Origin: an uncultured Prevotellaceae bacterium
Lineage (GTDB): Bacteria > Bacteroidota > Bacteroidia > Bacteroidales > Bacteroidaceae
Length of the DNA stretch: 40,785 bases
Assembly (NCBI GenBank): GCA_902768105.1
Contig: CACXJZ010000020.1
Span: forward strand, 1-40,785
Direction of reading: 5' to 3'
The stretch's first letter is position 1. Every line of letters begins with the position of its first letter. The translations under genes were made by a program, and so were the position numbers. Below the pieces are notes generated by a model that was not told where the DNA came from, searched no databases, and worked only from the letters and a program-made list of their open reading frames with translations. Of the stretch, positions 8,819 to 39,377 are shown piece by piece.

Positions 8819-8875
8819 GCGGCAGCAAATTCTCCTCTCTCCTCTCTCCTCTCTCCTCTTTTTTTCGTACTTTTG
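8819..8875 (+). promoter_or_regulatory. rsmI promoter with shared upstream box (element A) and heptamer spacer
   Basis: The box GCGGCAGCAAATTCT (8819-8833) is followed by a 34-base spacer containing four TCTCCTC heptamers (8831-8858, overlapping the box by 3 bases), a T-run, and the -7 box TACTTTTG (8868-8875). The rsmI ATG is only 8 bases further on, so the leader is very short or absent. The same box at the same distance is found before three other genes. Confidence 0.65.
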
Positions 8876-8883
8876 GCCGCTGT

Positions 8884-9555
8884 ATGGGCACATTATACAT
8901 TGTACCGACGCCCGTGGGAAACATGGAGGACATGACTTTCCGCGCGGTGAGAATACTGAAGGAGGCCGACCTCGTGCTGGCCGAGGATACCCGCACGTCA
9001 GGCATCCTGCTGAAGCACTACGACATCAAGAACCACCTGATGTCGCACCATAAGTTCAACGAGCACGGCACCTCTGCCGGCATCGTGGAACGGCTGCGGG
9101 GCGGACAGAACGTCGCACTCATCAGCGACGCTGGCACACCAGGCATCAGCGACCCGGGGTTCTTCCTCGTACGCGAGGCCGTGCGTGCAGGCATCGAGGT
9201 GCAGACGCTGCCGGGTGCCACAGCCTTCGTGCCCGCACTGGTGTCGAGCGGACTGCCCTGCGACCGCTTCTGCTTCGAGGGGTTCCTGCCTCCGAAGAAA
9301 GGCCGTCAGAGCCGCATCGAGGCGCTGCGCGACGAGCCGCGCACCATCGTGTTCTACGAGTCGCCCTATCGCCTGCTGAAGCTGTTGCAGCAGCTGGCCG
9401 AGGCCTTTGGCGAGGAGCGTCAGGCAAGCGTGTGCCGCGAAATCTCGAAGGTTCACGAGGAGAGTCGCCGAGGCACGCTGGCAGAGCTTATCACCCACTT
9501 CACCGAGACCGCCCCGAAGGGCGAGATTGTGGTGGTGGTTGAGGGCGCCCATTGA
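8884..9555 (+). CDS. rsmI: 16S rRNA (cytidine-1402 2'-O)-methyltransferase RsmI
   Basis: A 223-residue protein of the tetrapyrrole-methylase fold with the full RsmI signature: N-terminal L-Y-I-V-P-T-P-V-G-N, A-E-D-T-R-T-S, I-S-D-A-G-T-P-G-I-S-D-P-G, then L-P-G-A-T-A-F-V-P-A-L and F-E-G-F-L-P-P-K-K-G-R. It uses S-adenosylmethionine to 2'-O-methylate C1402 in the ribosomal P-site. The protein is shorter than E. coli RsmI (286 residues) because it lacks the C-terminal extension, which is common in Bacteroidetes. The stop codon lies in the first unit of the heptamer array leading to the next gene. Confidence 0.95.
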   Translation: MGTLYIVPTPVGNMEDMTFRAVRILKEADLVLAEDTRTSGILLKHYDIKNHLMSHHKFNEHGTSAGIVERLRGGQNVALISDAGTPGISDPGFFLVREAVRAGIEVQTLPGATAFVPALVSSGLPCDRFCFEGFLPPKKGRQSRIEALRDEPRTIVFYESPYRLLKLLQQLAEAFGEERQASVCREISKVHEESRRGTLAELITHFTETAPKGEIVVVVEGAH

Positions 9556-9606
9556 GAATGGATCATTGAGTATTGAAAATAAATAATTGAGAATTGATAA
9601 TTAAAC
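9551..9606 (+). repeat. Eight-unit 7-base degenerate tandem array
   Basis: Exactly 56 bases divide into eight in-register heptamers, of which ATTGAGA is typical (others include ATTGAGT, ATTGAAA, ATTGATA and ATTAAAC). The array contains the rsmI stop codon and ends 9 bases before the ATG of the next gene. Confidence 0.7.
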
Positions 9607-9615
9607 AAAAGAGTT

Positions 9616-10482
9616 ATGAAGAAAGTATTTGTATTCGCCATGTGCTGCGCAGCACTGGCATCTTGTAACTTAGGAAAGAACAGCGATGCCGAGCTCAAGG
9701 CTATGCAGGAGCGCGACTCGCTCAATCAGGTACTCGCCCAGAGAGACAACGAGATCAATGACCTGATGACCACCTTCAACGAGATTGAAGAGGGATTCCG
9801 CGTGATTAACGAGGCAGAAGGACGCGTAGCCCTGGCCCGCTCGGGTGAGGGAAGCAACGCCACCGCCCGCATCCAGGAGAACATGCAGTTCATCCAGTCA
9901 ACCATGGAGCAGAACCGCGTGCTCATCAACAAGCTGCAGCAGCAGCTGAAGAACAGCACCGTGAAGGCTGACGCCCTGCAGAAGGCACTCGACAACCTCA
10001 CGAAGGAGCTCGAGCAGAAGGACCAGCAGATTGCCCAGCTGAAGGCTGAGCTGGAGGCTAAGGACATCCACATCCGCGAGCTCGACCAGCGCGTGACCGA
10101 GCTGCACGCCGACGTGAGCACACTCACCGAGGAGAACACGCAGCAGCAGCAGACCATCTCCAACCAGGACCGCGAGCTGAACGCCGCCTACTTCGTCTTC
10201 GGCACCAAGAAGGAGCTGAAGCAGCACGGCATCCTCGACGGCGGCAACCTGTTCAAGAAGAGCAAGGTAAGTGCCGACTTCAACAAGGAGTACTTCACCA
10301 AGGTTGACATCCGCCAGCAGAAGGAGATTAAGCTCTTCTCAAAGAAGGCAGACATCAAGACCTCGCACCCCTCAGGCAGCTACTCGCTCGACGAGGACGA
10401 GAACGGACAGTACATCCTGCACATCACCGACCCGCAGCGGTTCTGGAGCAACAGCCGCTACCTGGTCATCGTAGTGAAGTAA
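9616..10482 (+). CDS. Coiled-coil lipoprotein, possibly Cbp1-like
   Basis: A 288-residue lipoprotein with lipobox L-A-S-C (Cys17). Residues about 25-185 form a long heptad-rich coiled coil dominated by Gln, Glu, Lys and Leu, followed by a compact C-terminal domain of about 100 residues with F-G-T-K-K-E-L, H-P-S-G-S-Y and a final beta-like R-Y-L-V-I-V-V-K. The organisation resembles the Bacteroides fragilis Cbp1 group (collagen-binding glycoprotein adhesins). A Bacteroidales O-glycosylation motif D-S-L is present at residues 34-36. The family link is from memory and collagen binding is not shown here. The protein probably sits at the outer membrane and projects through its coiled coil. It follows rsmI by 60 bases and ends before a bidirectional terminator. 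Confidence 0.72.
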   Translation: MKKVFVFAMCCAALASCNLGKNSDAELKAMQERDSLNQVLAQRDNEINDLMTTFNEIEEGFRVINEAEGRVALARSGEGSNATARIQENMQFIQSTMEQNRVLINKLQQQLKNSTVKADALQKALDNLTKELEQKDQQIAQLKAELEAKDIHIRELDQRVTELHADVSTLTEENTQQQQTISNQDRELNAAYFVFGTKKELKQHGILDGGNLFKKSKVSADFNKEYFTKVDIRQQKEIKLFSKKADIKTSHPSGSYSLDEDENGQYILHITDPQRFWSNSRYLVIVVK

Positions 10483-10502
10483 TTGGGAAACTAAGAAACA
10501 AA

Positions 10503-10543
10503 AAAATATATTGGGGAGTGACGTTCACTCCCCAATATATTTT
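10503..10543. terminator. Bidirectional terminator between convergent genes
   Basis: A perfect 18-base-pair inverted repeat (10503-10520 with 10526-10543) and a 5-base loop, with A-rich and T-rich outer ends, so it can work on both strands. The response-regulator stop codon and its last residues lie inside it. Confidence 0.88.
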
Positions 10544-10875
10544 GCAATCATCTTCAGACAAACCTCGTGCGAGATGGGTTTCGCAAGGAAGTCGTTACAA
10601 CCCGCCTCCAGCGAGTCCTCACGGTCGCTGTCGAACGCATTGGCCGTCAGCGCCACAATAGGCAGGTCGGGCAGTTTCTCCCTGATTTCACGTGTGGCCT
10701 GCAGTCCGTCCTTGATGGGCATACGCAAATCCATCAGTATCAGGTCGAAGCCCTCGGCCTTGTCAATGGCTTCCTGGCCATTGGCAGCACGCTCAAACTC
10801 ATAATGGTTCTTGAGGATGTACGTCATCAGCAGATAGTTGCTGTCGTTGTCTTCTGCAATCAGAATTTTCTTCAT
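10525..10875 (-). CDS. Single-domain response regulator (REC only)
   Basis: A 116-residue receiver domain with no output domain. The acidic pair is Glu8/Asp9, the phospho-acceptor is Asp49 (in L-I-L-M-D-L-R-M-P), the switch Thr is Thr77 (A-L-T-A-N-A), and Lys99 lies in A-K-P. All catalytic residues are intact. Such CheY/Spo0F-like proteins relay phosphate between kinases or act by protein contact. No cognate kinase is adjacent, and the kinase-like protein at 22015 lacks a phospho-acceptor His, so the partner is elsewhere. The gene has its own -7 box with a 43-base leader. Confidence 0.93.
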   Translation of the reverse strand: MKKILIAEDNDSNYLLMTYILKNHYEFERAANGQEAIDKAEGFDLILMDLRMPIKDGLQATREIREKLPDLPIVALTANAFDSDREDSLEAGCNDFLAKPISHEVCLKMIAKYIGE

Positions 10876-10918
10876 ATCTTTCCTCGTTTTTACAGTTGTT
10901 AATTTGTCAATGATGTTA

Positions 10919-10926
10919 CAAAATTA
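10919..10926 (-). promoter_or_regulatory. Promoter (-7 box) of the response regulator
   Basis: Reads TAATTTTG on the minus strand, 43 bases before the start codon. No clear -33 TTTG is seen. Confidence 0.55.
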
Positions 10927-11031
10927 AGGCTTTCTATTGTAATACTCGCCTTTTGGGATAACAATTTAAGGAAATTTCACCTTTCCGTCCTATTGCTGCC
11001 CCTCGCGCTTTGCCATTTCAAGGAAAATTTT

Positions 11032-11140
11032 TAACTATGCACACGAAGCGTGCGAGAACGAATTTCAAGGTCGTGATCAAGTGACTTCTTTCCAAACCAA
11101 TTACGAAGGCGGCACTTCTCTAAGGAGAGGTGCCGTTTTT
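11032..11140 (+). ncRNA. Candidate small RNA ending at an intrinsic terminator
   Basis: A terminator hairpin (CGGCAC 11110-11115 with GTGCCG 11130-11135, inner CTCT/AGAG, then five T) stands with no gene upstream of it on this strand. About 70 bases before it, TAACTATG (11032-11039) sits in a context matching the metF promoter: TTTCAAGGAAAAT precedes both and TGCAC follows both. A transcript from there would be about 95-100 bases, with a small 5' stem-loop. The -7 box is imperfect, so expression is uncertain. Confidence 0.28.
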
Positions 11141-11161
11141 GTGACGACAAAACGACGTTTC

Positions 11162-11315
11162 GTAGGGATGAAGAGCGCCAGTTGCAGGGATGAAGAACGG
11201 CAGTTGTAGGGACGAAGAGCCGCTCTCGTCGGGTAAAGGGCGTACGTGTCTTATATGAACGCGCCCGTGTCTCATACGGGACGCGGGCGGGGATTTTATC
11301 GGACACGGGCGGGGA
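11162..11315. repeat. 22-base degenerate tandem repeat array (about seven units)
   Basis: Three clear units (11162-11183, 11184-11205, 11206-11227) share G-T-A-G-G-G-A-T-G-A-A-G-A-G followed by G-C-A-G-T-T. The following units diverge while keeping the 22-base register; the last two (11272-11293, 11294-11315) share an ending CGGGCGGGGA. Because 22 is not a multiple of three, no single reading frame repeats, so it is unlikely to be coding. The GC-rich half can form hairpins, for example 11262-11271 with 11302-11311. Confidence 0.7.
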
Positions 11316-11383
11316 ACTCCCGTGCTACTTTGCCTCCTTTTGCACTGGCAACGGCAGTGCTTGGCATTGTTGCTTTCTGGGGG

Positions 11384-11414
11384 CAAAGATAATATAATCG
11401 GAAGAAAAAAGCAA
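11384..11414 (-). promoter_or_regulatory. Promoter reading leftward into the 22-base array
   Basis: On the minus strand, TATCTTTG (11384-11391) is preceded by TTG (11412-11414) at a 20-base spacing, the expected Bacteroidetes architecture. No long gene follows. The only early ORF is about 23 codons. The transcript could be a structured RNA or a long leader of the response regulator 500 bases away. Confidence 0.55.
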
Positions 11415-11465
11415 GTTTCTAAGTAAAAAGTTTGGTTTACTTCCGTATTTTTCAAGGAAAATGAT

Positions 11466-11473
11466 TAATTTTG
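11466..11473 (+). promoter_or_regulatory. Promoter (-7 box) of metF, nearly leaderless
   Basis: TAATTTTG ends 9 bases before the metF ATG, so the predicted transcript begins within a few bases of the start codon. The gap 10927-11482 otherwise holds the small-RNA candidate, the 22-base array and the leftward promoter. Confidence 0.6.
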
Positions 11474-11482
11474 CACGCGTAA

Positions 11483-12460
11483 ATGACAACAATAGCAGAC
11501 TATATCATAGAAGGTGACGAACGCCGGTTCTCGTTTGAGGTGTTGCCACCGTTGAAGGGTACCGGCACGGAAGGGCTGTTCAGCACCATCGACAAGTTGG
11601 TGCCGTTTAACCCTGCCTTCATCAACATTACCACGCACCATTCGGAATATATCTATCGGGAGCTTCCCGACGGACAGTTTGAGCGACTGCGCTTGCGTCG
11701 CAGACCCGGCACCATTGCCATTGCCGCTGCCATTCAGCAGAAGTACAACATCCCCGTGGAGCCGCACGTCATCTGTAGCGGGCGCACCATTGAGGAGATA
11801 GAGTACGAGCTCCTGGACCTGCAGTTCCTGGGCATCAGGAACCTGATGCTACTGCGTGGCGACAAGGCGAAGGAGGACAGCCGCTTCGTTCCGACGCCGG
11901 GCGGACATGCCCACACAACGGACCTGATACGTCAGGTAGTGCGCTTCAACGAGGGCTTCTTTGCCGACGGTACGCCCATCAAGAACCCGGAGGCGAAGTT
12001 CGACTTCGGCGTGGCCTGCTATCCCGAGAAGCACGAGGAGGCGCCCAACCTGGAGATGGACATGCACTACCTGAAGGAGAAACAGGACCTGGGCGCACAG
12101 TATGCCGTGACGCAGCTGTTCTTCGACAACGAGAAATACTTCGCGTTCGTCAAGAAGGCGCGCGAGATGGGCATCACCATCCCCATCATCCCCGGCATCA
12201 AGCCGTTTGCCAAGCTGACACAGCTGACGGTGGTGCCCAAGACGTTCCACTGCGACATCCCCGAGGCACTGGCCAAGGAAATCGTGAAGTGTAAGACGGA
12301 TGACGAGGCGCGACAGCTGGGCATTGAGTGGACCACCGCCCAGTGTCAGGAGCTGTATGCCCACGGCGTGAAGAACATCCATTTCTACACGGTGTCGGCA
12401 GTAGATAGTGTGGTGGAGATAGTGAAGAGACTAAAGACCCCTCCAACCTCCCCTGTTTAG
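11483..12460 (+). CDS. metF: 5,10-methylenetetrahydrofolate reductase
   Basis: A 325-residue TIM-barrel flavoenzyme that reduces 5,10-methylene-THF to 5-methyl-THF for methionine synthesis. Family motifs are present: F-S-F-E-V-L-P-P-L-K-G near the N-terminus (Glu as catalytic acid), F-I-N-I-T-T-H-H, L-L-R-G-D at mid-protein for flavin binding, Q-L-F-F-D and I-P-G-I-K-P. The C-terminus ends K-T-P-P-T-S-P-V, and these residues and the TAG stop come from a GC-rich palindromic repeat, so a few residues are probably a late addition. First gene of a four-gene run with the clamp-loader subunit, PSP1-like protein and gldH. Confidence 0.95.
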   Translation: MTTIADYIIEGDERRFSFEVLPPLKGTGTEGLFSTIDKLVPFNPAFINITTHHSEYIYRELPDGQFERLRLRRRPGTIAIAAAIQQKYNIPVEPHVICSGRTIEEIEYELLDLQFLGIRNLMLLRGDKAKEDSRFVPTPGGHAHTTDLIRQVVRFNEGFFADGTPIKNPEAKFDFGVACYPEKHEEAPNLEMDMHYLKEKQDLGAQYAVTQLFFDNEKYFAFVKKAREMGITIPIIPGIKPFAKLTQLTVVPKTFHCDIPEALAKEIVKCKTDDEARQLGIEWTTAQCQELYAHGVKNIHFYTVSAVDSVVEIVKRLKTPPTSPV

Positions 12461-12466
12461 GGGAGG
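12447..12466. repeat. GC-rich palindrome, copy 1 (end of metF)
   Basis: CCTCCCCT (12447-12454) and AGGGGAGG (12459-12466) form an 8-base-pair stem with a 4-base loop. The metF stop codon TAG straddles the loop and right arm. Flanked by CCCCTCCAA on the left and CTTCAGG on the right, as in copy 3. Confidence 0.75.
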
Positions 12467-12493
12467 CTTCAGGAAAAAGTTAAGGAGTAGAGA

Positions 12494-13681
12494 ATGACGT
12501 TTGACGAGGTCATAGGACAGCAGGAGGTGAAGCAGCGGCTGGTGCAGCTGGTGGATGAGCAACGTCTGCCACATGCGCTGATGCTCTGTGGACCGCAGGG
12601 CAGTGGCAAGCTGGCGCTGGCAACGGCCTTCGGATGTTACCTCCTGAGCCCCACCAACCTCCCCAAAGGGGGAGGCTTAAAAGTAGAAGGTGGGGGGACT
12701 GACATGTTCGGGGAACCTATACCTTTAGAGGAGGGAAGGAGTAATCCCCTGCTGGAGAACCTGCAGCACCCGGACCTGCACTTCACCTACCCTACCATCA
12801 AGCTGCCCTCGATGAGCAGCGACTGCAAGCCCGTGAGCGCGGACTTCGCCAACGAGTGGCATGAGCTCATCAAGCGCGGGCTGTACTTCTCGATGAATGA
12901 TTGGATGCAGGCCATGGGCGGCGAGAACCAGCAGGCCATCATCACCGTTGGCGAGAGCGACGCCCTCATCCATAAGCTGTCGCTGAAGTCGAGTCAGGGC
13001 GGCTACAAGGTAAGCATCATCTGGCTGCCCGAGCGCATGAACCAGGAGTGTGCGAACAAGCTGCTGAAGCTCATTGAGGAGCCGCCACAGAAGACGGTGT
13101 TCATCATGGTGAGTCAGGAGCCCGACAAGCTGCTGGAGACCATCCGCAGTCGCGTGCAGCGCATCGACGTGAAGAAGATTGACGACGAGAGCATGGCGCA
13201 GGCACTCATGGAGCGTCGCGGACTGGGCGAGGATACGGCGCGCCGCGTGGCTCGCAGAGCCAACGGCAACTGGCTGAAAGCCCTTGAAGAGATTGAGGAG
13301 GGCAGCGAGAAGGAACTGTTCCTGGACATGTTCAAGAGTCTGATGCGACTGGCCTACACCCGTAAGGTGAACGAGCTGAAGCGCTGGAGCGAGAGCATGG
13401 CGGGCATGGGACGCGAGAAGCAGAAGCGTTTCTTGGAATACTTCCTGCTGCTGGTCCGTGAGAACTTCATGTACAACTTCCACCAGGAGGAGCTGTGCTA
13501 CATGACGCAGGCCGAGGAGGACTTTGCCAAGAACTTCGCCCGCTACATCAACGAGGCGAACGTCATTGCCCTCAACAATCTGGCGAACCGTGCCATCCGT
13601 GACATCGGACAGAATGCCAACGCGAAGATCGTGTTTTTCGACTTCGCCCTGCAAATGATTATGTTGTTAATACAGAAATAA
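12494..13681 (+). CDS. holB: DNA polymerase III delta-prime subunit (clamp loader, HolB type)
   Basis: A 395-residue AAA+ protein. The N-terminus has G-Q-x-x-V-K-Q-R-L, a Walker A loop G-P-Q-G-S-G-K (residues 33-39), a Walker B/sensor region with E-C-A-N-K-L-L-K-L-I-E-E-P-P, and S-R-V-Q-R as the sensor 1/SRC-like motif. It would be the stator of the clamp loader that places the sliding clamp on DNA. Residues about 52-83 form a Gly/Pro-rich segment (L-P-K-G-G-G ... E-G-G-G-T-D) encoded by a palindromic repeat that interrupts the P-loop-adjacent helix region. The reading frame stays open across it, so the gene should still be functional. The start at 12494 fits the conserved N-terminus. Confidence 0.9.
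   Translation: MTFDEVIGQQEVKQRLVQLVDEQRLPHALMLCGPQGSGKLALATAFGCYLLSPTNLPKGGGLKVEGGGTDMFGEPIPLEEGRSNPLLENLQHPDLHFTYPTIKLPSMSSDCKPVSADFANEWHELIKRGLYFSMNDWMQAMGGENQQAIITVGESDALIHKLSLKSSQGGYKVSIIWLPERMNQECANKLLKLIEEPPQKTVFIMVSQEPDKLLETIRSRVQRIDVKKIDDESMAQALMERRGLGEDTARRVARRANGNWLKALEEIEEGSEKELFLDMFKSLMRLAYTRKVNELKRWSESMAGMGREKQKRFLEYFLLLVRENFMYNFHQEELCYMTQAEEDFAKNFARYINEANVIALNNLANRAIRDIGQNANAKIVFFDFALQMIMLLIQK
12649..12695. repeat. GC-rich palindrome, copy 2 (in frame inside holB)
   Basis: Inner stem CCTCCCC (12658-12664) with GGGGAGG (12669-12675), and outer stem CCCCACC (12649-12655) with GGTGGGG (12689-12695). It lies wholly within the clamp-loader gene without breaking the frame. Confidence 0.75.
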
Positions 13682-13692
13682 GACCCCTCCCA

Positions 13693-13712
13693 CCTCCCCT
13701 GTTTAGGGGAGG
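13693..13712. repeat. GC-rich palindrome, copy 3 (holB to PSP1 gap)
   Basis: CCTCCCCT and AGGGGAGG with the loop GTTT, identical to copy 1 in core, beginning 12 bases after the holB stop. It fills most of the 59-base gap before the next start. Confidence 0.75.
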
Positions 13713-13740
13713 CTTAAGGAGAAAAGTAATATATAAATAT

Positions 13741-14865
13741 ATGGAGAAGGAATTAGATATCATAACGGGATGCGACCGAGGGCTGTGTAAGAATGCCGTG
13801 GGCCGACAGGACCGACAGCTGAACACCTACGACTGGCTGGCAGACGTGCCGGGCAATGCCGACACGACCGACCTGGTGGAGGTGCAGTTCAAGCACACCC
13901 GCAAGGGTTACTACCACAACGTGAACAACCTGCCGCTGAAGAAGGGCGACATCGTGGCTGTGGAAGCCAACCCGGGTCACGACATCGGTGTGGTGACGCT
14001 GACCGGACGACTGGTGAAGATGCAGCTGAAGAAGGCCAACCTGAAGAGTGCCGACGACATCAAGCGCATCTACCGCATAGCACGTCAGATTGACATGGAC
14101 AAGTTCCGCGAAGCCAAGGCCCGCGAGCACGAGACGATGATTGAGAGCCGTGAGATAGCCAAGGGGTTGGGTTTGCAGATGAAGATTGGCGACGTGGAGT
14201 ATCAGGGCGACGGCAACAAGGCCATCTTCTACTACATTGCCGACGAGCGCGTGGACTTCCGTCAGCTCATCAAGGACCTGGCGGCCGCCTTCCACGTACG
14301 CATCGAGATGAAGCAGATTGGTGCACGCCAGGAGGCTGGACGCATTGGTGGAACAGGCCCCTGCGGACGTGAGCTCTGCTGTGCCACATGGATGAAGAAC
14401 TTCTCGAGTGTCAGCACGGGTGCCGCCCGTATTCAGGACATCTCGCTCAATCCGCAGAAGCTGGCAGGCATGTGTGCAAAGCTGAAGTGCTGTCTGAACT
14501 ACGAGGTAGATGACTACATGGAAGCCAGCAAGAAGCTGCCGAACAAGGACATCGTGCTGCAGACGCTAGATGCAGACTACTACTACTTCAAGGCAGACAT
14601 CCTGGCAGGCATGCTCACCTACTCTACCGACAAGAACATGGCCGCGAACCTGGAGGTCATCACGGCTGACCGTGCGAAGGCCATCATCGAGATGAACCGC
14701 AAGGGAGAGAAGCCGGAGTCACTGCAGGAGGACGGCATGGTACAGGAAGCGAAAGGTCCCGTTGACCTGGCGACGCAGGAAAGCATCAACCGCTTCGACA
14801 AGGCCAAGAAGAAAAAGAGGAAGAATAAAAAGAAGCCCCACCAAACCTCCCCAAAGGGGGAGTAG
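13741..14865 (+). CDS. PSP1-domain protein (RicT/YaaT-like)
   Basis: A 374-residue protein with the PSP1 C-terminal domain. Its signature runs G-G-T-G-P-C-G-R-E-L-C-C, then M-C-A-K-L-K-C-C-L-N-Y-E, giving the Cys-rich Fe-S-binding motif of RicT (Bacillus YaaT). In Bacillus this protein works with RicA and RicF in RNA maturation and phosphorelay control; its role in Bacteroidetes is not established. The order holB, PSP1, gldH is a conserved Bacteroidales arrangement as I recall it. The Lys-rich tail ends K-P-H-Q-T-S-P-K-G-E, and the last nine residues and the stop come from a palindromic repeat. Confidence 0.88.
   Translation: MEKELDIITGCDRGLCKNAVGRQDRQLNTYDWLADVPGNADTTDLVEVQFKHTRKGYYHNVNNLPLKKGDIVAVEANPGHDIGVVTLTGRLVKMQLKKANLKSADDIKRIYRIARQIDMDKFREAKAREHETMIESREIAKGLGLQMKIGDVEYQGDGNKAIFYYIADERVDFRQLIKDLAAAFHVRIEMKQIGARQEAGRIGGTGPCGRELCCATWMKNFSSVSTGAARIQDISLNPQKLAGMCAKLKCCLNYEVDDYMEASKKLPNKDIVLQTLDADYYYFKADILAGMLTYSTDKNMAANLEVITADRAKAIIEMNRKGEKPESLQEDGMVQEAKGPVDLATQESINRFDKAKKKKRKNKKKPHQTSPKGE
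14846..14862. repeat. GC-rich palindrome, copy 4 (end of PSP1 gene)
   Basis: CCTCCCC AAAG GGGAG core, the same type as copy 2. The right arm is followed at once by the TAG stop of the PSP1 gene, so the repeat encodes its last residues. Confidence 0.7.
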
Positions 14866-14873
14866 TAGCCCTA

Positions 14874-14919
14874 ATGTATGATGGCTGATGTATGATGGCT
14901 GATGTATGATGGCTGATGT
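14874..14919 (+). repeat. 14-base tandem repeat before gldH with nested micro-ORFs
   Basis: Three exact copies of ATGTATGATGGCTG (14874-14887, 14888-14901, 14902-14915) and a partial fourth that supplies the gldH ATG at 14920. Each unit contains the five-codon ORF ATG GCT GAT GTA TGA, whose stop overlaps the next ATG. Confidence 0.9.
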
Positions 14920-15384
14920 ATGAAGAAGCTTAAAGTTCAAATATTATTGTTTCTGGGTTTTTGTCTGTTGACGGCGTGCAATGAGAAAACCGTCTATAGC
15001 GAGTACGAATCCATCGCCGTTGAAGGATGGGCGCGCAACGATACCATTGCATTCAACGACATCGTCATCAAGGCAACGACAGACTACAAGGAAGAGATAG
15101 GGGTGCGCATCAACGATGCCTTCCCCTTTCTCGGCTTGTTCCTGTATGTAGAGCAGGAAATCAGGCCCGGCCACATCATCAGGACCGACACGCTGAGCTG
15201 TCGGCTGATGGATGAGGAGGGAAACGTCAAGGGACGCGGCCTGAGTTTCTACCAGTATAACTTCCATCTGACAACGCTACACCTTTATGCCGGCGACACG
15301 CTGAGCATACGCATACGCCACAACATGAGACGAGAAACACTGCCTGGCGTTGCGAACATCGGCATGAGAATTTCGAAGCAATAA
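14920..15384 (+). CDS. gldH: Gliding-motility-type lipoprotein GldH
   Basis: A 154-residue lipoprotein with lipobox L-T-A-C (Cys20). After the lipid anchor the body is beta-rich, with the GldH hallmarks Y-S-E-Y, W, D-T-I-A-F near the start and R-H-N-M-R-R-E-x-L-P-G-V at the end. GldH is needed for gliding and type IX secretion-linked functions in Flavobacterium. Prevotella does not glide, so here it is more likely an envelope or secretion accessory. A PorT-like protein at 25255 is another type IX component. The start at 14920 is the last of several ATG in the upstream tandem repeat and the only one giving a proper lipoprotein signal. Confidence 0.85.
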   Translation: MKKLKVQILLFLGFCLLTACNEKTVYSEYESIAVEGWARNDTIAFNDIVIKATTDYKEEIGVRINDAFPFLGLFLYVEQEIRPGHIIRTDTLSCRLMDEEGNVKGRGLSFYQYNFHLTTLHLYAGDTLSIRIRHNMRRETLPGVANIGMRISKQ

Positions 15385-15438
15385 AGCCCCTTATGGTCCC
15401 CCCAGTAGGGGACGAAAAAGAACCCCAGTTATAAAAGA

Positions 15439-18742: not shown

Positions 18743-18763
18743 CTGCAGTCACTCGTTTGGAAA

Positions 18764-19273: not shown

Positions 19274-19277
19274 TGCC

Positions 19278-20147: not shown

Positions 20148-20152
20148 AAAGA

Positions 20153-21175: not shown

Positions 21176-21178
21176 TCT

Positions 21179-21213
21179 AATCTTTAAACTTTAAACTCTT
21201 TACTCTAAACTTT
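21179..21213 (-). repeat. 7-base degenerate tandem array before mreB
   Basis: Five heptamers reading AAAGTTT, AGAGTAA, AGAGTTT, AAAGTTT, AAAGATT on the minus strand, starting in the purH stop codon and ending 3 bases before the mreB ATG. Confidence 0.65.
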
Positions 21214-21805
21214 ATTTCTCAAACCAGCCATGTATGGCGGTGTCGTAGTGTGAGCTCACACCGAAGGCACGTGTGGCAAACATGCGGCGCTGCTCCTTCG
21301 TGGTTTCTGCGCCCTGCTTGTTCAGAATGTCAAGCAGCACACCGTACTCAGCCTTTGAAGGTACGATTACCACATCATTGAAGTTCTTGGCAGCAGCACG
21401 AATCAGCGAGATGCCGCCAATATCAATCTTCTCGATGATGTCCTGCTCGCTGGCGCCATTGGCCACCGTCTGCTCAAACGGATAAAGGTCAACGATCACG
21501 AGGTCAATCTCAGGAATCTCGTACTTAGCCATCTGCTCACGGTCACCCTCATTATCGCGACGTCCGAGAATACCTCCAAACACCTTGGGGTGCAACGTCT
21601 TCACACGTCCACCCAGAATTGAGGGATAGGTCGTCAGGTCTTCCACCTTCTGGCAGTCATAACCCAACGACTCAATAAACTGTTGCGTACCACCTGTCGA
21701 GAGAAGTGTCACACCCTCCTCGTTCAGTTTCTTCAGCAACTCGTCAAGCCCGTCCTTATGAAATACGGAGACAAGTGCCGTCTTGATTTTCTTTGTATCA
21801 GCCAT
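21212..21805 (-). CDS. purH: Stand-alone IMP cyclohydrolase domain (N-terminal half of PurH)
   Basis: A 197-residue protein that is only the MGS-like IMP cyclohydrolase domain of PurH: L-L-S-T-G-G-T, G-G-R-V-K-T-L-H-P-K-V-F-G-G-I-L, D-L-Y-P-F, I-D-I-G-G-I-S-L-I-R-A-A-A-K-N. It closes FAICAR to IMP, the last step of purine synthesis. Full-length PurH is about 510 residues and has an AICAR transformylase domain. This ORF stops at the domain border (H-G-W-F-E-K) and no remnant of the second domain lies in the 36 bases before mreB. The transformylase must be elsewhere or absent. PurH beside mreB is a recurrent Bacteroidales order, so this is likely the orthologous locus after domain loss or separation. 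Confidence 0.9.
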   Translation of the reverse strand: MADTKKIKTALVSVFHKDGLDELLKKLNEEGVTLLSTGGTQQFIESLGYDCQKVEDLTTYPSILGGRVKTLHPKVFGGILGRRDNEGDREQMAKYEIPEIDLVIVDLYPFEQTVANGASEQDIIEKIDIGGISLIRAAAKNFNDVVIVPSKAEYGVLLDILNKQGAETTKEQRRMFATRAFGVSSHYDTAIHGWFEK

Positions 21806-25998: not shown

Positions 25999-26026
25999 CT
26001 GTAAACCGTAAACTGTGAACTGTAAA
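25999..26026 (-). repeat. 7-base degenerate tandem array touching the porT start codon
   Basis: Four heptamers on the minus strand, TTTACAG twice, TTCACAG and TTTACGG, ending at the base before the ATG. Confidence 0.75.
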
Positions 26027-26136
26027 CTAATTTAATAACGTAAAAACAGCAGTCTTATTATATATGTTGCTATTTCGACAAAGTATAAATAAGTAAAAAT
26101 TCTCCTCAAAAATAGGTAATATTCGGAAATAATCAT

Positions 26137-26410: not shown

Positions 26411-26485
26411 GTGTCCATGCCAAAATCGTGCCCATTCGCCATAGGGTCAGTGGATTCTCGATTTACATAGCGTCCCGACACCTTG

Positions 26486-26546: not shown

Positions 26547-26596
26547 AAGTTGAAACAAAAAAGGGAAGATTTTATGGAACAGGACGTTTTTCGTCA

Positions 26597-26740: not shown

Positions 26741-26755
26741 GATTTATGCGGATCT

Positions 26756-27631: not shown

Positions 27632-27634
27632 GCT

Positions 27635-28540: not shown

Positions 28541-28554
28541 TGTTGTATGCATTT

Positions 28555-28592
28555 AAAAAAGGACCGCCCTCAGGACTCTTCCTTTGGGCGGT
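28555..28592 (-). terminator. Rho-independent terminator after the TPR gene
   Basis: On the minus strand ACCGCCC (28592-28586) pairs with GGGCGGT (28569-28563) around a 16-base loop that has its own short stem, and a T-run follows (28560-28555). It closes the exbB-to-TPR operon. Confidence 0.75.
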
Positions 28593-28616
28593 TCCCAGAA
28601 TAACTAATACTACTTT

Positions 28617-30041: not shown

Positions 30042-30112
30042 AATCGTTGAAGTTTTAAGTTCTTCTTTACTATTGTCAAGTGTATGACGTTTCTTTTCTG
30101 CAAAAGTTTAGC

Positions 30113-31078
30113 TTATTTACTTACGTTAACTTCCCTGACGGTCAGGTCTCCGCGATAGGGCAACAGGCTCGAACGGAAGATGATGAGCTGTCCCTTGGGT
30201 GACGACACGAACTGCGTGAATCCCCAGGGCAGACCATGTATGGGGTCTGTGCAGAGGGCGTAGATCGTGCGTATGAGCGGATAGTTTCCGTTATATAAAT
30301 AATATTGGTAAGGCTTCCACGAGTTCATGGCCGTAGCCGTGTCCATGCGGCTTACCGACATTACCTGAATATTCTTCTTGAAGGTGACGTTCGTCGTGTC
30401 ACGCTTGTCGTTGAGCCAGTTGGAACCGATGATTCCAATGGAGTTGGCATGATTCTCAACGTAGTTGACAACCTCGGCGCTCGTCTTTACTGCGTAGATA
30501 TTGGGGCTGTTGATGGGTTTGCCGCCAAGGATGGAATCTACGCACCAGCGTACGGTGCTGGAGTTCTTGTTGTCAAAGACAACCTCAATGTCTCCCTGCT
30601 TGGAGTTAGGGAACACTTCTTTCCACTTCGACACTTCGCCTCCGAGAATGCGGCGGATGTCTTTCACCGTGATACAGGTGTCGCTGTTGGCCTTGTTGAT
30701 AATCAGTGACAGGCCGTCGTAGCCAATGGGCATAGAGACGGGTGCACCACCGATGGCCTTGAGTGCCTTCAGCTCTTTCTCGGTATAGTCGCGCGAAGCG
30801 AAAATAAGACATACGGAGTCGTTCAAAAGCATTTCCATTGCAGCATACTCGTCCGTATAGACGGGATGCAGGACGGCATCCTTATAGGTTGCCTCGAATA
30901 CTTTGACCTCCTCATTGATGATAGGACTGAAACTCTCGTCGGCAGCAAATGCAATCTCACCTGATGAGAATGTATCAGTACGGGTGTATTTACTATGTTT
31001 AGGTTTGTCGCCGGAACAAGCCGACAACAAACCTAATATGAGAGTTAATCCAACTGTTACGTTGAATAAGCGATTCAT
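30113..31078 (-). CDS. PstS-like substrate-binding lipoprotein
   Basis: 321 residues, lipobox L-L-S-A-C (Cys21) with C-S-G-D after it. The body is a type II periplasmic binding fold: the central region has I-G-Y-D-G-L-S-L-I-I-N-K, I-L-G-G-E-V-S-K-W and the S-S-T-V-R-W anion-binding-like stretch seen in phosphate-binding PstS proteins. No pst permease is nearby. It lies 2 bases after tonB and before the TPR gene, an arrangement that I recall in many Bacteroidetes. A role in sensing or handing over a ligand to the TonB system is inference. Confidence 0.85.
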   Translation of the reverse strand: MNRLFNVTVGLTLILGLLSACSGDKPKHSKYTRTDTFSSGEIAFAADESFSPIINEEVKVFEATYKDAVLHPVYTDEYAAMEMLLNDSVCLIFASRDYTEKELKALKAIGGAPVSMPIGYDGLSLIINKANSDTCITVKDIRRILGGEVSKWKEVFPNSKQGDIEVVFDNKNSSTVRWCVDSILGGKPINSPNIYAVKTSAEVVNYVENHANSIGIIGSNWLNDKRDTTNVTFKKNIQVMSVSRMDTATAMNSWKPYQYYLYNGNYPLIRTIYALCTDPIHGLPWGFTQFVSSPKGQLIIFRSSLLPYRGDLTVREVNVSK

Positions 31079-31080
31079 GT

Positions 31081-31905: not shown

Positions 31906-31934
31906 AATTCTTAATACATTTAATAGTTATACAA

Positions 31935-32594: not shown

Positions 32595-32595
32595 G

Positions 32596-33246: not shown

Positions 33247-33277
33247 AGCGATAAATGTTTTAAAGGGTTAGCAAAAA

Positions 33278-34108: not shown

Positions 34109-34230
34109 AATTTTAAAATGTTTTGATTTTAGTTATTTATTAAAAATTAAGTTTGTTATGTTTCTGATATAACGTTTTTTACCGCGTTTTAGTATGCGCA
34201 CAACGACCCTATTGGGCCGTTACGCATCGG

Positions 34231-34262
34231 CAAAGATAGTAAATTCGGGCGGACTAAACAAT
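34231..34262 (-). promoter_or_regulatory. Promoter of the exbB operon
   Basis: On the minus strand TATCTTTG (34231-34238) has ATTG (34259-34262) 20 bases upstream. The leader begins with an 8-base-pair stem (AACGGCCC with GGGTCGTT, one G-U pair) 20-30 bases after the start point. Confidence 0.65.
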
Positions 34263-34294
34263 GAGTTAATATTTTTTAACTTGATATTTCTCAA

Positions 34295-35491
34295 TTATTT
34301 TAGTTTTCCCAACACTTCCTTGATGCGTCGCATGGCCTCGCGGATGTTTTCGTCGCTTGTTGCGTAGCTCATGCGGAAGCACTCCGGGTCGCCAAAAGCA
34401 TCACCTCCGACGCTAGCCACATGACCCTTCTCCAGAAGGTAAAGTGCCAGGTCGGTAGAGTTGTTGATGACAGCACCCTCTTCAGTCTTCTTGCCGTAGA
34501 AGCTGCTGCACTTGGGGAAGAGGTAGAACGCACCCTCGGGGACGTTGACTTCCAGGCCGGGGATATCCTTCGCCAGCTCGACGATGAGGTTGCGACGGCG
34601 CTCAAACGCCTGACGCATCTGCTCCACGCACTCCTGACTCTCGGTATAGGCGAACTCGGCAGCCTTCTGGCTGACGGAACACGGTCCGCTAGTGTATTGT
34701 CCCTGCAGCTTGTTGCAGCCTTTGACAATCCACTCGGGGGCGGCAATGTAACCGATGCGCCAGCCCGTCATAGCGTATGCCTTCGAGACACCGTTCACGA
34801 TGATACTGCGCTCCTTCATGCCCTCAAACTGGGCGATGCTCTCGTGCTTGCCTACGTAGTTGATATGTTCGTAAATCTCGTCGGCCAGTACAAACAGGTC
34901 GTCGTGACGCTTGATAACCTCAGCCAGTCCTGCCAGCTCGGCCTTCGAATAGACGCTACCTGTGGGGTTGCTGGGCGAGCAGAGGATGAGCATGCGCGTC
35001 TTAGGTGTGATGGCAGCCTCCAGCTGCTCAGGGGTAATCTTGAAGTTCTGGTCGAAGCGGGCCTCAACGAAGACGGGCTCGCCACCAGCCAGCAGTACCA
35101 TCTGCGGATAGCTGACCCAGTAAGGCGTAGGGATGATGACCTCGTCGCCGGGGTTCACCAGCGCCATCACCGTGTTGCAGACACTCTGCTTGGCACCGTT
35201 TGAAACCAAGATCTCCGAAGGCAGGTAGTGCAGCTGATTCTCACGCTCCAGCTTACGTGCGATGGCCTGACGCAGCTCAGCATAGCCAGGAACAGGCGAA
35301 TACTTCGAGAAGTTCTCGTCGATGGCGAGCTTGGCAGCCTTCTTGATATGGTCGGGGGTGTTGAAGTCGGGCTCGCCGACGCTCATGTTGATGACGTCGA
35401 TGCCCTGAGCTTTCATTTCAGAACTTTTCTGCGACATTGCCAGCGTTGCTGACGGTGCCAGTCTTTGCAGACGATTGGATAATTGTGCCAT
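34295..35491 (-). CDS. aspC: PLP-dependent aminotransferase (aspartate aminotransferase, class Ib type)
   Basis: 398 residues of fold type I. PLP-binding residues are visible: S-N-G-A-K near 98-101, Asn175 in S-P-S-N-P-T-G, Asp204 and Tyr207 in A-D-E-I-Y, the Schiff-base Lys237 in V-S-K-A-Y-A-M-T-G-W-R, and a conserved Arg near the C-terminus. It most resembles the class Ib aspartate aminotransferase family, which often also uses aromatic or other amino donors, so the exact substrate is uncertain. It has its own promoter (element D) and follows ribBA. Confidence 0.9.
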   Translation of the reverse strand: MAQLSNRLQRLAPSATLAMSQKSSEMKAQGIDVINMSVGEPDFNTPDHIKKAAKLAIDENFSKYSPVPGYAELRQAIARKLERENQLHYLPSEILVSNGAKQSVCNTVMALVNPGDEVIIPTPYWVSYPQMVLLAGGEPVFVEARFDQNFKITPEQLEAAITPKTRMLILCSPSNPTGSVYSKAELAGLAEVIKRHDDLFVLADEIYEHINYVGKHESIAQFEGMKERSIIVNGVSKAYAMTGWRIGYIAAPEWIVKGCNKLQGQYTSGPCSVSQKAAEFAYTESQECVEQMRQAFERRRNLIVELAKDIPGLEVNVPEGAFYLFPKCSSFYGKKTEEGAVINNSTDLALYLLEKGHVASVGGDAFGDPECFRMSYATSDENIREAMRRIKEVLGKLK

Positions 35492-35518
35492 TTTCGTGTT
35501 AGCGTTTTATTTTGGATG

Positions 35519-35574
35519 CAAAAGTACAAAAAAAAGTGAATAGCAAAGAGTGAATAGTGAGAATTTGCTGTCAC
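35519..35574 (-). promoter_or_regulatory. Aminotransferase promoter with shared upstream box (element D)
   Basis: On the minus strand the box is GTGACAGCAAATTCT (35574-35560), then 33 bases including AGTGAAT-type heptamers, then TACTTTTG (35526-35519). Upstream it continues with GATGAAACGTTAAAAA (35598-35583), also found in element C. Conserved relative to the other copies at GCAAATTCT. Confidence 0.6.
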
Positions 35575-35614
35575 AATACGTTTTTTTAACGTTTCATCAC
35601 TCCCCACGCAGCAC

Positions 35615-36832
35615 TCACTTCAGATGCAGCGTGTGGCCCATGCGCTCCTTCTTGGTCTCCAGGTAGCGCAGGTTATACTCGTTGGGGGTCACCTCAATGG
35701 GAACATTCTCCACGATTTCCAGTCCGTAGGCCTCCAGACCCACGCGCTTCACGGGGTTGTTGGTCAGCAGACGCATCTTGTGCACACCCAGGTGGCGCAG
35801 CATCTGTGCACCACAGCCGTAGTCGCGCTCATCGGGCTTGAAGCCCAGGTGCACGTTCGCATCGACAGTGTCGTAGCCCTGCTCCTGCAGCTTGTAGGCG
35901 GCAATCTTGTTCATCAGGCCGATGCCGCGCCCCTCCTGCTGCATGTAGATGACCACGCCCCTACCCTCTTTCTCGATGGCCTGCATCGCCTTGTGCAGCT
36001 GTTCGCCGCAGTCGCAGCGCTTCGAGCCGAGGATGTCGCCTGTGGCACACGACGAGTGTACGCGCACCAGCACAGGCTCGTCTTCCTTCCACTCGCCCTT
36101 CACCAGTGCCATGTGCTCCAGTCCGTTGCTCGTCTGTCGGAAGGGGATGAGCTTGAAGTGTCCGTAGTCGGTCGGCATATCCACCATGTCGCCCACCTCA
36201 ATGAGCGACTCCTTCTTCAGGCGATAAGCTATGAGGTCCTTGATGGTGATGATTTTCAGGTTGTGCTCCTGTGCGAAGACCTGCAGCTCCGGCATGCGTG
36301 CCATCGTGCCATCATCGTTCATAATCTCCATGAGCGCTCCGGCAGGATACAGCCCGCTCAGCATACACAAATCGACGGCCGCCTCCGTATGTCCGCTTCT
36401 GCGTAGCACGCCGTGCTCCTGGGCATACAGGGGGTTGATGTGTCCCGGACGTCCGAAAGTCTCGGGTGTCGATGTGGGGTCGGCCAGCGCCCTGATGGTG
36501 GCTGCACGGTCGTGGGCGCTCACTCCCGTGGTACATCCCTCCAACTTGTCGATGGTCACCGTGAAGGGTGTCCCCAGCACCGAGGTATTGTCCTGTACCT
36601 GTCGCGGCAGGTCCAGTTCCTCGCTCCGGCTGATGGTGATGGGTGCGCAGAGCACGCCACGCGCATACTTCAGCATGAAGTTCACTTTCTCAGGTGTTAT
36701 CATTTCTGCCGCCACAATCAGGTCGCCCTCATTCTCGCGGTCTTCATCATCTACAACAATGACAAATTCGCCCCGACGGAAATCCTCGAGGGCCTCTTCG
36801 ATGGTGTTTAGCTTAAATTCTCCCATATACAT
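35615..36832 (-). CDS. ribBA: Bifunctional 3,4-dihydroxy-2-butanone-4-phosphate synthase / GTP cyclohydrolase II
   Basis: 405 residues. The N-terminal RibB half shows [11 protein letters not shown] (metal-binding acids) and R[10 protein letters not shown]. The C-terminal RibA half begins at about residue 210 and has [18 protein letters not shown] (zinc Cys) and Q-Q-E-G-R-G-I-G-L. It makes both committed precursors of riboflavin. ATG 36832 and ATG 36826 (M-G-E-F) are both possible; the difference is two residues. It lies 14 bases after the LptF/G gene in one transcript. Confidence 0.95.
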
Positions 36833-36846
36833 TATTATATATAGTA

Positions 36847-38757
36847 TTAGTAAGTAGTCATAAATCGCTCGTCGATGCGTGCAATGATGGCATCGCTGGC
36901 CTGACGCATGTTCTTCAGGTCACGGAAGAGCCGGAAGCGGAAGCGTAGCATGCGGAAGTAGAAGAACACGCCCAGCGGCAGGATGAGTCCAGTCACCACG
37001 TTCAGCCACTTGCGCACAAATGGACGCGTGTGGGCGTGGGTGGCCATGATGGGGATGTTGTTCAGCTCGTTCAGGATTATCTTGTCCTTCGAGTAGCTGA
37101 GGTTCTCTACTGTCTCCTCCAGCACCTCGTTGATCTCGGCTATATCGTGGTCATCGCCAGGACGGAAGAACACCTTGATGGGGTTCGGCCAGCGTAGCAG
37201 CTTGTGCTCATGCGTATAGCTGTCCGTCTTCTCGTTGATCTCCACGAGCTTGGCGCGATCCTCAACATACCTCGGGTCTTCTATGATGACCTCCTTGCGG
37301 GTGATGTTGCGCTTCATGCGCAGTCCCAGCATACGCATGGCGATGTTCTTGTAGAGGTCTATGTTGAAGACCACAGAGTCGTTGTTGGCCTTGTAGGTGA
37401 AGAACACGGCAATAGGCGTCAGCACCGCTGTACCTATCCATCGGCCGAAGAGCACCGTCCACTCGTCTGCACGCGCCATGCGGAAGCCCGTGTTGTCGAA
37501 GATGTAGAACACGATGAACACCAGCACCGACACGATGACGGGCACACCCAGTCCACCCTTGCGGATAATGGCTCCCAGCGGTGCTCCGATGAAGAAGAAG
37601 ATGACGCACGACAGCGCCAGCGTAATCTTTCCGTACGCCTCCAGCTCGTGCAGACGCTCGTTGCGGTTCAGCATCTCCGAGTATTCGCTCTTCAGCTCCA
37701 GGTCCATCTGCGCCGTACGTGCATACTCCGTTGCAGCCTTTACCACAAGCTGCTTGTCCTCAGCCTTCAGCTTAGCGAAGAGCGAGTCAAACTCCATGTC
37801 CTCCTTCGCAGCGGCAGCCACGGCCTTCAGCGAGTCCTTCTTTTCTATCTGCGGCTTCCTGTACGTGATGTAGCGTCCCTCGTCGTAGAAGGCGTGTGCC
37901 ACCGAGTCGTTAAACTCACGGATGGAGTCCAGGTCGTGGTAGATGCGACGTATGCTCTTGGCCTTTGCGCTGGCGGCAATACCGCTGACGTCGGCCAGCG
38001 AGAAATCACCGTCGAAGTCAAGCACTATCTGCTTGTGGCTGAACGTCTCGCGGCGATAGGGCACGTTGGCACTACCGGCAAGGTCCTGCGACCGCATGTT
38101 CTCAAACCACTCGCCGCTGTAGAGCGTCAGCAGCAGGTGCTTCTTCTCGGCTGTCGCCTGCAGCATACCCGAGTCTGCCAAGATGATGGCATGATCCTCG
38201 AAGCTGCCGTTCTGACGGTATATCATGATGCCATACAGCTTTCCCGTGTCCAAATTCTTCTTCTGCACGTAAAGGTTACAGTTGGGTACACCGTCGTAGA
38301 AAATGCCCTCAGGAATCTCCACCTCAGGACTCTTCTGCTTCATCGACAGCAGCAGCTGGCCAAACGACTTGTTGGCCTCCGGACCAATGACGTCTTGGAA
38401 ATAGAAGGAGATACCCGTAATCACCAGCGTGATGACGATGAGCGAGCGCATGGCCTGCATCAGCGAGATGCCTGCCGCCTTGATGGCCGTCAGCTCCGAG
38501 CTCTCGCCCAGGTTACCAAACGCTATCAGCGACGACAGCAGGATGGCCAGCGGCAAAGCCTGTGGCAGCAGCATCAGTCCCATGTACCAGAAGAACTGCG
38601 CCAGCACCGTCAGCGAAAGTCCCTTGCCGATGAGGTCGTCCACATATCGCCACAGGAACTGCATCATCAGCACAAACTGGCAGATGAAGAACGTTCCTGC
38701 AAACAACAGCAAGAACTGTTTGGCAATAAATATGTCTAATTTTTTTATGCGAAACAT
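36847..38757 (-). CDS. LptF/LptG-family lipopolysaccharide export permease (YjgP/YjgQ)
   Basis: 636 residues, much longer than E. coli LptF (366). Six membrane segments are arranged as three N-terminal (about 13-33, 53-80, 105-122), then a large periplasmic beta-jellyroll-like region, then three C-terminal; motifs include [31 protein letters not shown] in two parts and [12 protein letters not shown]. It would be part of the ABC machine that moves LPS from the inner membrane onto the Lpt bridge. The extra length lies in a C-terminal extension after the transmembrane core. Bacteroidetes often have this long single form. Confidence 0.9.
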
Positions 38758-38768
38758 ATTTCAGCCTG

Positions 38769-38826
38769 CAAAGATACGACTTTTTAGTGAAAAGTGAAGA
38801 GTGAAGAGTGAAGAATTTGCTGCCGC
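38769..38826 (-). promoter_or_regulatory. lptF promoter with shared upstream box (element B)
   Basis: On the minus strand the box GCGGCAGCAAATTCT (38826-38812) is followed by 35 bases containing CTTCACT-type heptamers and an A-run, then TATCTTTG (38776-38769). The box is identical to that of element A (rsmI). Confidence 0.65.
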
Positions 38827-38885
38827 TTTAGTTTTTTTTTGTTTTGCTGGCCGATTCTTCACTCTTCACTCTACACTCTTCATTT
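38786..38885. repeat. Long imperfect inverted repeat of AGTGAAG heptamers
   Basis: Four AGTGAAn units (38786-38813) face their reverse complements (about 38854-38882). The arms pair over at least 21 bases with one mismatch around a loop containing the shared box. The hairpin could terminate the START-like gene just upstream. Confidence 0.65.
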
Positions 38886-38890
38886 CATCT

Positions 38891-39292
38891 TTACAGTCCA
38901 CTGACGCGGTGCAGTCTGTCAAGATTTTCGTCCCAAATGCCGCGCAGGTCCTCTATTTCGTCATCCTCGGCATAGTCCGTAATCAGCATGTTCAGGTGGC
39001 CCGTCAGTTCACTGGGCTCAAGTCTGATTTCCCAAAAAGCCTGCGGATCAGCTTCTTGGTAGTCCCACTTCATGCGTATATGACTGAATTTATTACACTC
39101 CAGGATCTGCGATTTCTTCGTGTCGCGGTCTGTCCACGGATGGCCCCATGTGAATGTCATGGTCTCTCCGTCAGCATCAGCTACTACAATGTCAGCCAGC
39201 CATTTCTGCAAACCCTCGGCCGTGCTAATCATGCCCCACACAATGTTGGGCGACTTGGTGTTTAGCGGGTATTCAACGGTCAATTTCTGCAT
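38891..39292 (-). CDS. START-like domain protein (SRPBCC superfamily)
   Basis: A 133-residue soluble protein without signal peptide. Start M-Q-K-L-T-V-E-Y-P-L-N, then W-G-M-I-S-T-A-E-G-L-Q-K-W-L-A-D, F-x-W-G and a C-terminal W-D-E-N-L-D-R-L-H-R-V. This matches the Bacteroidetes START-like family (helix-grip fold with a hydrophobic pocket). The ligand is unknown. It lies upstream of lptF and has its own promoter with the shared box (element C). Confidence 0.85.
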   Translation of the reverse strand: MQKLTVEYPLNTKSPNIVWGMISTAEGLQKWLADIVVADADGETMTFTWGHPWTDRDTKKSQILECNKFSHIRMKWDYQEADPQAFWEIRLEPSELTGHLNMLITDYAEDDEIEDLRGIWDENLDRLHRVSGL

Positions 39293-39320
39293 AGTCCCTT
39301 TAGATTTTTAGCGTTTGCTG

Positions 39321-39377
39321 CAAAGGTACTAAAAAAAAAGAATAGCAAAGAATGAAGAGTGAAGAATTTGCTACCGC
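39321..39377 (-). promoter_or_regulatory. START-like gene promoter with shared upstream box (element C)
   Basis: On the minus strand GCGGTAGCAAATTCT (39377-39363) is followed by 34 bases, then TACCTTTG (39328-39321). GATGAAACGTTAAAAA lies upstream (39400-39385), as in element D; C and D are alike over about 80 bases. Confidence 0.62.

Follow-up and report, generated by a model that had tools for sequence, protein, structure and literature searches.

Shared box at four promoters

The window analysed here is the whole 40,785-nucleotide (nt) stretch of contig CACXJZ010000020.1 from an uncultured Prevotellaceae bacterium (assembly GCA_902768105.1), which is contig C20 of its 2.70 Mb genome (90 contigs, 86.5% complete; below, the own genome). 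A 15-nt sequence, termed the box, occurs upstream of four genes in the window: rsmI, an aminotransferase gene, lptF and a START-like gene. These gene names are upheld by domains (TP_methylase of RsmI type, class I/II aminotransferase, LptF_LptG and START_2, respectively). A preliminary description placed the box, in gene direction, at a nearly constant distance from the -7 promoter box TAnnTTTG and interpreted it as a functional upstream promoter element or as a mobile promoter-bearing repeat. All four sites are confirmed. The box occurs exactly at 8819-8833 (+) and 38812-38826 (-), with one mismatch at 39363-39377 (-) and with two at 35560-35574 (-); a fifth match with three mismatches, at 30939, lies away from the four promoters. 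Shuffled windows contain a mean of 1.44 matches at up to three mismatches, and five matches were reached in one of 100 shuffles. Distances from box end to TAnnTTTG were re-measured at the same 34, 33, 35 and 34 nt, and the four positions with their 33-35 nt spacing are far beyond chance. Likeness further upstream, which had been claimed for the lptF and START copies, stands in part: the shared GATGAAACGTTAAAAA is real, but it is common to the aminotransferase (35583-35598) and START (39385-39400) copies and the lptF copy lacks it. The promoter features are as follows.

8819..8859, + strand: repeat copy A, rsmI promoter; exact box at 8819-8833 and CTCTCCT-type heptamer array at 8834-8859
8868..8875, + strand: rsmI resident -7 box TACTTTTG, 34 nt past the box
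8763..8770, - strand: divergent -7 box (CAAAAGTA on the + strand) upstream of the thymidine kinase gene (8138-8719), 48 nt left of the box
35534..35574, - strand: repeat copy B, aminotransferase promoter, decayed; box GTGACAGCAAATTCT at 35560-35574
35519..35526, - strand: aminotransferase resident -7 box TACTTTTG, also in L111, L069 and L097 without the repeat
38786..38826, - strand: repeat copy C, lptF promoter; exact box at 38812-38826
38854..38884, + strand: partner arm head to head with copy C, directly past the stop of the START gene; box end degenerate
38782..38893, no strand: both arms at lptF (copy C and partner); hairpin of -46.9 kcal/mol, z -7.2
38769..38776, - strand: lptF resident -7 box TATCTTTG; L069 has TACCTTTG and a near-identical leader without the repeat
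39337..39377, - strand: repeat copy D, START-gene promoter; box GCGGTAGCAAATTCT at 39363-39377, array decayed
39321..39328, - strand: START-gene -7 box TACCTTTG

Repeat architecture and distribution

Rather than standing alone as a promoter element, the box forms the inner end of a repeat of about 41-42 nt that consists of GCGGCAGCAAATTCT followed usually by four 7-nt units (mostly TTCACTC or TTCATTC). One arm can be written as GCGGCAGCAAATT plus a G-poor array, usually of four heptamers. In aligned copies, the array after the box spans about 26 nt and reads TCACT(CTTCACT)3 or variants with TTCATTC, CTCTCCT or TAAACTT. This array is present even at copies with no promoter behind them, and some copies are reduced to ATTCT plus the array. 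Two arms placed head to head around a loop of about 22 nt make a near-perfect hairpin of about 104 nt. Terminal inverted repeats of this kind are present in 37 distinct head-to-head pairs among the loci examined, yet single arms are common. The pair spacer is 22 nt in ten pairs and 25 nt in five, and is congruent to 1 modulo 3 in 28 of the 37; four 22-nt loops (L041, L280, L311, L321) are alike by eye. Two full elements fold at -70.2 and -70.1 kcal/mol (z -15.3 and -14.8), and the single arms at the rsmI and START promoters of the window fold no better than shuffles (z -1.0 and -0.7). An Rfam search with two stretches gave no match above the gathering score; sub-threshold hits were nearly all hairpin-shaped. 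At one locus (L009; G000:C21:28244-28377), a 47-nt unit of array, TTAAAAATGGTTAA and box occurs in tandem before one promoter.

Copies are abundant in the own genome. A sequence-only model of the 41 nt recovers at least 80 at E<1e-3, which is a lower bound because 150 of 1521 candidates were scored; of 100 rows listed, the 20 with E>1e-3 were dropped, including an exact-box promoter copy (C59:7849). The 80 copies comprise 38 at promoters, 21 in open frames and 21 others. Exact boxes number 20 compared to none in a reversed control, and the looser GNRGCAGCAAATTCT with up to two mismatches gives 107 compared to 31; exact-box counts miss variants such as GCGGTAGC. Across the genus, the exact box occurs in 44 of 150 genomes (own genome included, with the highest count of the 150). 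Within the family, a longer pattern turned up in three of the 151 genomes sampled (own genome included), all in the genus of the window (taken here as Prevotella), i.e., in one of 30 genera. In a collection of genome contigs, 90 stretches contain the box, 24-36 nt and TAnnTTTG, of which L113 and L125 look like chance matches; the named records among them are mostly labelled Prevotella or Prevotellaceae, many from ruminant stomachs. A tblastn search of named phages and plasmids with the 35-residue full insert gave no match, a result weakened by the low-complexity filter and the short query.

Heptamer microsatellites could in principle arise on the spot by slippage and share a flank by chance. 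Other heptamer arrays in the window and array differences between orthologues would fit such an origin. It is nevertheless highly improbable given an exact 15-nt box in 20 places with none in the control, box-array composites within unrelated genes, and only a slight lag-7 excess at 61 box-less promoters; the shared box disfavours slippage alone. Heptamers are likewise rejected as a general promoter feature: in these 61 promoters, drawn from ten control stretches and the window, lag-7 matching is 0.339 compared to 0.301 after shuffling, and reaches 0.7 or more in one.

Repeat copies at promoters

The spacing in the window recurs elsewhere. Among 92 distinct box rows from the 90 stretches (spacers restricted to 24-36 nt), the spacer is 34 nt in 52 and 35 nt in 32, and searches free of this restriction recover the same peak. 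Of 115 exact-box copies in relatives, 21 are classed as promoter copies (TAnnTTTG at 29-37 nt), with distances of 34-36 nt among the rows listed. From the repeat end of own copies (the reported match end, which in some rows precedes position 41), the nearest TAnnTTTG is 8 nt away in 18 copies, 9 nt in 12 and 10 nt in five, that is, at 8-10 nt in 35 of 80. Single copies lie at 3, 13 and 14 nt, and two tandem or composite copies at 62 and 63 nt. The nearest TAnnTTTG is never 15-60 nt away, and 40 of the 80 copies have none within 110 nt; an AT-rich background would place one in the 3-14 nt range at 3% per copy.

Fourteen of the 80 own copies also have a TAnnTTTG on the opposite strand at 47-48 nt, together with a second array of A-rich units. 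In divergent promoters (for example L212 C24:36494, L190 C5:2590 and window 8763-8818), this second array lies left of the box, 47-48 nt separate the box from the divergent -7 box, and the array units resemble the -7 box itself (AAAAGGT, other strand).

Comparison with relatives indicates that the -7 boxes are resident, because they persist at rsmI, lptF and the aminotransferase gene where the repeat is absent. L151 keeps TACCTTTG and a near-identical leader at rsmI without the repeat, and the aminotransferase TACTTTTG is kept without the repeat in L069, L111 and L097, the last of which also has a recognisable leader. The promoter-bearing repeat that had been proposed is thus not supported. 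Among 28 rsmI orthologues (L062 plus 27 of the closest loci; 112 of 120 genomes had an rsmI match), 26 are box-less with a TAnnTTTG and two have the box, one of which (L062) was retrieved for its box. The rsmI promoter of L152 has a box-like GGGGCAAAT and another array. Box-less orthologous TAnnTTTG promoters also occur for lptF (L069), the aminotransferase gene (L069, L111, L097) and the START gene (L097, L143); upstream of lptF in L111 there is neither box nor TAnnTTTG. The START-gene copy is decayed but in place in L069, has an exact box in L111 and is absent from L097 and L143.

These comparisons bear on a cis-regulatory role, in which a regulator or polymerase would read the box some 50 nt ahead of the start site and the array would be a spacer of set length. 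The very sharp distance from box to -7, a spacer that varies in sequence and rarely in length, better preservation of the box at promoters than in genes (p 0.0005) and recurrence at the same genes in several species (lptF and, by eye, fructose-bisphosphate aldolase and ribosomal protein S16) all favour this role. Shared box presence is, however, over-counted in the orthologue comparison because most loci were retrieved for carrying the box, and 17 of 35 promoter genes had any orthologue among the loci examined. All four window genes have box-less promoters in at least one relative each. Three box-less copies (C19:13589, C28:3814, C44:34744) keep the same 8-nt junction to the -7 box, which ties the spacing to the array's outer end. 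Shorter arrays bring the box 7-14 nt nearer (C43:25078 at 21 nt, L098 at 27 nt), and only the 21 of 115 exact-box copies in relatives noted above are classed as promoters. A cis-regulatory element is an unlikely explanation. The functional upstream element of the preliminary description is weakened by box-less promoters, box-less copies and shifted boxes, and partly favoured by the fewer box mismatches at promoters and constant array length.

Copies in genes and viral contigs, and the origin of the repeat

Within genes, copies form 14 codons in frame. The reading frame is kept because the insert is 42 nt long; forward copies read AAANSSLFTLHSSL and reverse copies SEELRVKSEEFAAA, with the TGA of the array swapped in reverse copies for TTA or another sense codon. 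Among the 115 exact-box copies in relatives, 31 are intragenic and in frame (19 forward, 12 reverse) and one is frameshifted. Besides the promoter copies, 15 are coding on the array side only, a class that holds intragenic copies (at least L041 and L057), and 47 are other or contig-edge, with intragenic copies (L042) also among the 40 'other' rows. The hosts are conserved enzymes and include CTP synthase (two genomes, at two different sites), CarB, a carbon-nitrogen hydrolase, an AMP-binding enzyme, a MenC-like enzyme, a C13 peptidase and an epimerase; several inserts fall within a single Pfam match. Other own copies lie at gene ends. L057 and own C9:15229 (L230), from two species, share an in-frame insert at one site of a DUF5597 glycosidase; the own copy retains a nearly intact array, and its box codons have diverged.

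Empty sites are readable for an amidase gene of the own genome (contig C29) that has a 42-residue head-to-head insert. Among the matches listed, all but five full-length ones break near query residues 220-226 and 254-265. None of 28 readable relatives (30 loci taken) has a box-array insert at the site; nine have only DEDGVP or a close variant, and others a longer loop. Different repeats occupy this loop in some relatives, namely heptamers (L329, L334), a palindrome (L332) and a paired GGGGACAGTCCCC (L336), and L331 has a box-like CGGTAGCAAAC without an array. Other short in-frame repeats or palindromes occur in the amidase loop (L329, L330, L332, L334, L336, L342) and in a viral DarB gene (L432); several families of in-frame inserts seem to exist in Prevotella and viral contigs.

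Viral contigs carry the repeat as well. IMG/VR contains 43 stretches with it, and 31 of 39 distinct copies have the variant GCGGTAGC; these contigs may include host DNA, and viral genes were recognised for only some neighbours or hosts. Neighbours and hosts of the repeat include a DarB-like antirestriction protein, an integrase, a TerL nuclease domain and a metal-dependent hydrolase. Where a GCGGTAGC copy has an upstream open reading frame (ORF) of at least 60 codons, the ORF stops at the TAG within the box in 15 of 17 cases, and in seven of those 15 an ATG follows at 45-50. In L359, L362, L365, L379 and L393, upstream genes end in ...R* through this TAG, often with an ATG directly past the array. 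Of 11 DarB-like loci, five are readable: the insert is present in L422 and absent from L423, L424 and L426, and L432 has another palindromic repeat. The gene preceding the terminase has the box in L407/L408 and in L409 (93% identical), which do not have the array in common; L411, L413 and L414 have neither.

We consider it likely that the box is the end of a small, non-autonomous, palindromic mobile repeat of rumen Prevotella, some copies of which have been kept at promoters. A small mobile element is preferred over a promoter switch because the repeat also lies in frame inside bacterial and viral genes. The repeat has inserted into genes (42 nt, frame kept), at gene ends and at sites just upstream of existing -7 boxes, probably moved by an enzyme acting in trans. 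Its dispersal, usual length, insertion in frame and presence in viral genes are observed directly, as are the empty sites and the resident -7 boxes. At gene ends, its own stop codons can end the gene. Promoter copies may have been retained secondarily, where array and box replaced the ancestral -33 region and expression was not lost or was gained. The preliminary interpretation is thus partly supported: its mobile repeat agrees with the empty sites of relatives and with copies that lie within genes, at their ends or on viral contigs.

Several results weigh against a mobile repeat. Random insertion falls far short of explaining how precise the distance to the -7 box and the codon phase are; of the 19 intragenic copies in forward orientation, 18 share one codon phase although all three phases are open (binomial 3e-8), a count in which L036 and L263 are paralogues from the same genome. 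Box mismatches average 1.55 in 38 promoter copies compared to 3.86 in 21 open-frame copies, and array mismatches average 2.95 compared to 1.52 (permutation p 0.0005 for the box and array contrast), where promoter copies may share ancestry and their means are raised because C20:35535 and C66:1103 are out of register and several arrays are of another heptamer type. The box is better kept at promoters, which speaks against a purely neutral repeat but does not prove constraint, because a box may have been lacking from the outset in some gene copies. The rsmI array varies in sequence by species (CTCTCCT in the window, TTCATTC in L062 and TTCACTC-like forms) and is nearly constant in length, and different array sequences at near-equal length are not explained by simple copying. 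No mobiliser was identified, and no systematic search for a transposase flanked by repeat ends was made. No target-site duplication is proven, as relatives are too diverged around the insertion points for one to be read, and no strain-level polymorphism was seen.

The fixed positions fit both selection and directed insertion. With directed insertion, the machinery would prefer opened DNA just upstream of the -7 box and gene junctions, so that position would be set by mechanism rather than selection. That no own copy has its nearest -7 box at 15-60 nt, that array-only copies land on the same spot, and that upstream viral ORFs stop inside the box of GCGGTAGC copies in 15 of 17 cases are consistent with this. 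We know of no enzyme with such targeting, and the same precision could come from selection against all other positions; directed insertion is a possible explanation, of fairly low probability. An expression-aware DNA-writing process is decidedly improbable. In such a process, a constant box and an array fixed in length and variable in sequence would be set down at three positions defined by function: 8-10 nt ahead of the -7 box, between codons of a single phase, and at stop codons. RNA or open transcription complexes would then be the indicated route of insertion, and the array would be made by iterating a 7-nt template. For the mobile repeat itself, a role for the box at promoters may have been acquired after insertion.

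REP (repetitive extragenic palindromic) sequences are short dispersed palindromes that are moved by RAYT (Y1_Tnp) enzymes. The present repeat resembles them as a short dispersed palindrome and differs in that the own genome, the one with the most exact boxes of the 150 sampled, has no Y1_Tnp match (86.5% complete); Y1_Tnp is present in 72 of 120 genus genomes. RAYT is rejected as mobiliser because no Y1_Tnp occurs in the own genome as assembled. Integron attC sites were also considered, from their core motif and the GTTAAGC that precedes the box in many own promoter copies, and were set aside because copies in genes lack GTTAAGC.

The closest known parallel by description is with Rickettsia palindromic elements (RPEs), which are palindromes of about 150 bp that lie in frame in unrelated conserved genes and elsewhere and add a peptide (PMC10969869). 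The Prevotella repeat shares these traits and differs from that account in its 42-nt arms or hairpins of about 104 nt made of heptamer arrays, its occurrence in Bacteroidota and viral contigs, and its promoter-placed class at a fixed distance from the -7 box. It works like an RPE, as judged from descriptions rather than sequence, and is not counted as a member. BrickBuilt, a miniature inverted-repeat transposable element (MITE) of Porphyromonas gingivalis, is another Bacteroidales element with a tandem repeat inside an inverted-repeat element, and is linked to bidirectional transcription; its units are 23 nt long and it is always intergenic, 49-591 nt from coding sequence (PMC4596501). The present repeat has 7-nt units, occurs also in genes and abuts -7 boxes. 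Correia elements and other promoter-associated MITEs are likewise small repeats just upstream of genes, and Correia subtypes bring their own promoters (PMC10969869), whereas the Prevotella repeat meets a resident -7 box. Among the titles and opening lines of abstracts listed, a literature search returned no description of this repeat; most subscription journals and all of bioRxiv lay outside its coverage, so novelty is provisional.

If the mobile-repeat interpretation holds, a gut commensal genus would have its own Rickettsia-like trick, in which small palindromes lengthen conserved enzymes without breaking the frame. The repeats would sit where promoters could use them, and viral contigs could spread them. 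It would become testable by what means an element of 42 nt preserves reading frames, promoter spacing and stop codons with such precision. Shared 'promoter boxes' in Prevotella and odd 14-residue inserts (SEELRVKSEEFAAA, AAANSSLFTLHSSL) should be treated with caution, as they can be repeats rather than regulons or domains.

Other short repeats occur in the window. A perfect 14-nt tandem repeat (ATGTATGATGGCTG, 3.6 copies) lies at 14874-14923, at the junction of ORFs that end at 14865 and start at 14920, and box-less heptamer arrays of other sequence lie near ORF ends at 202-234, 4893-4917, 21178-21214 and 25999-26028.

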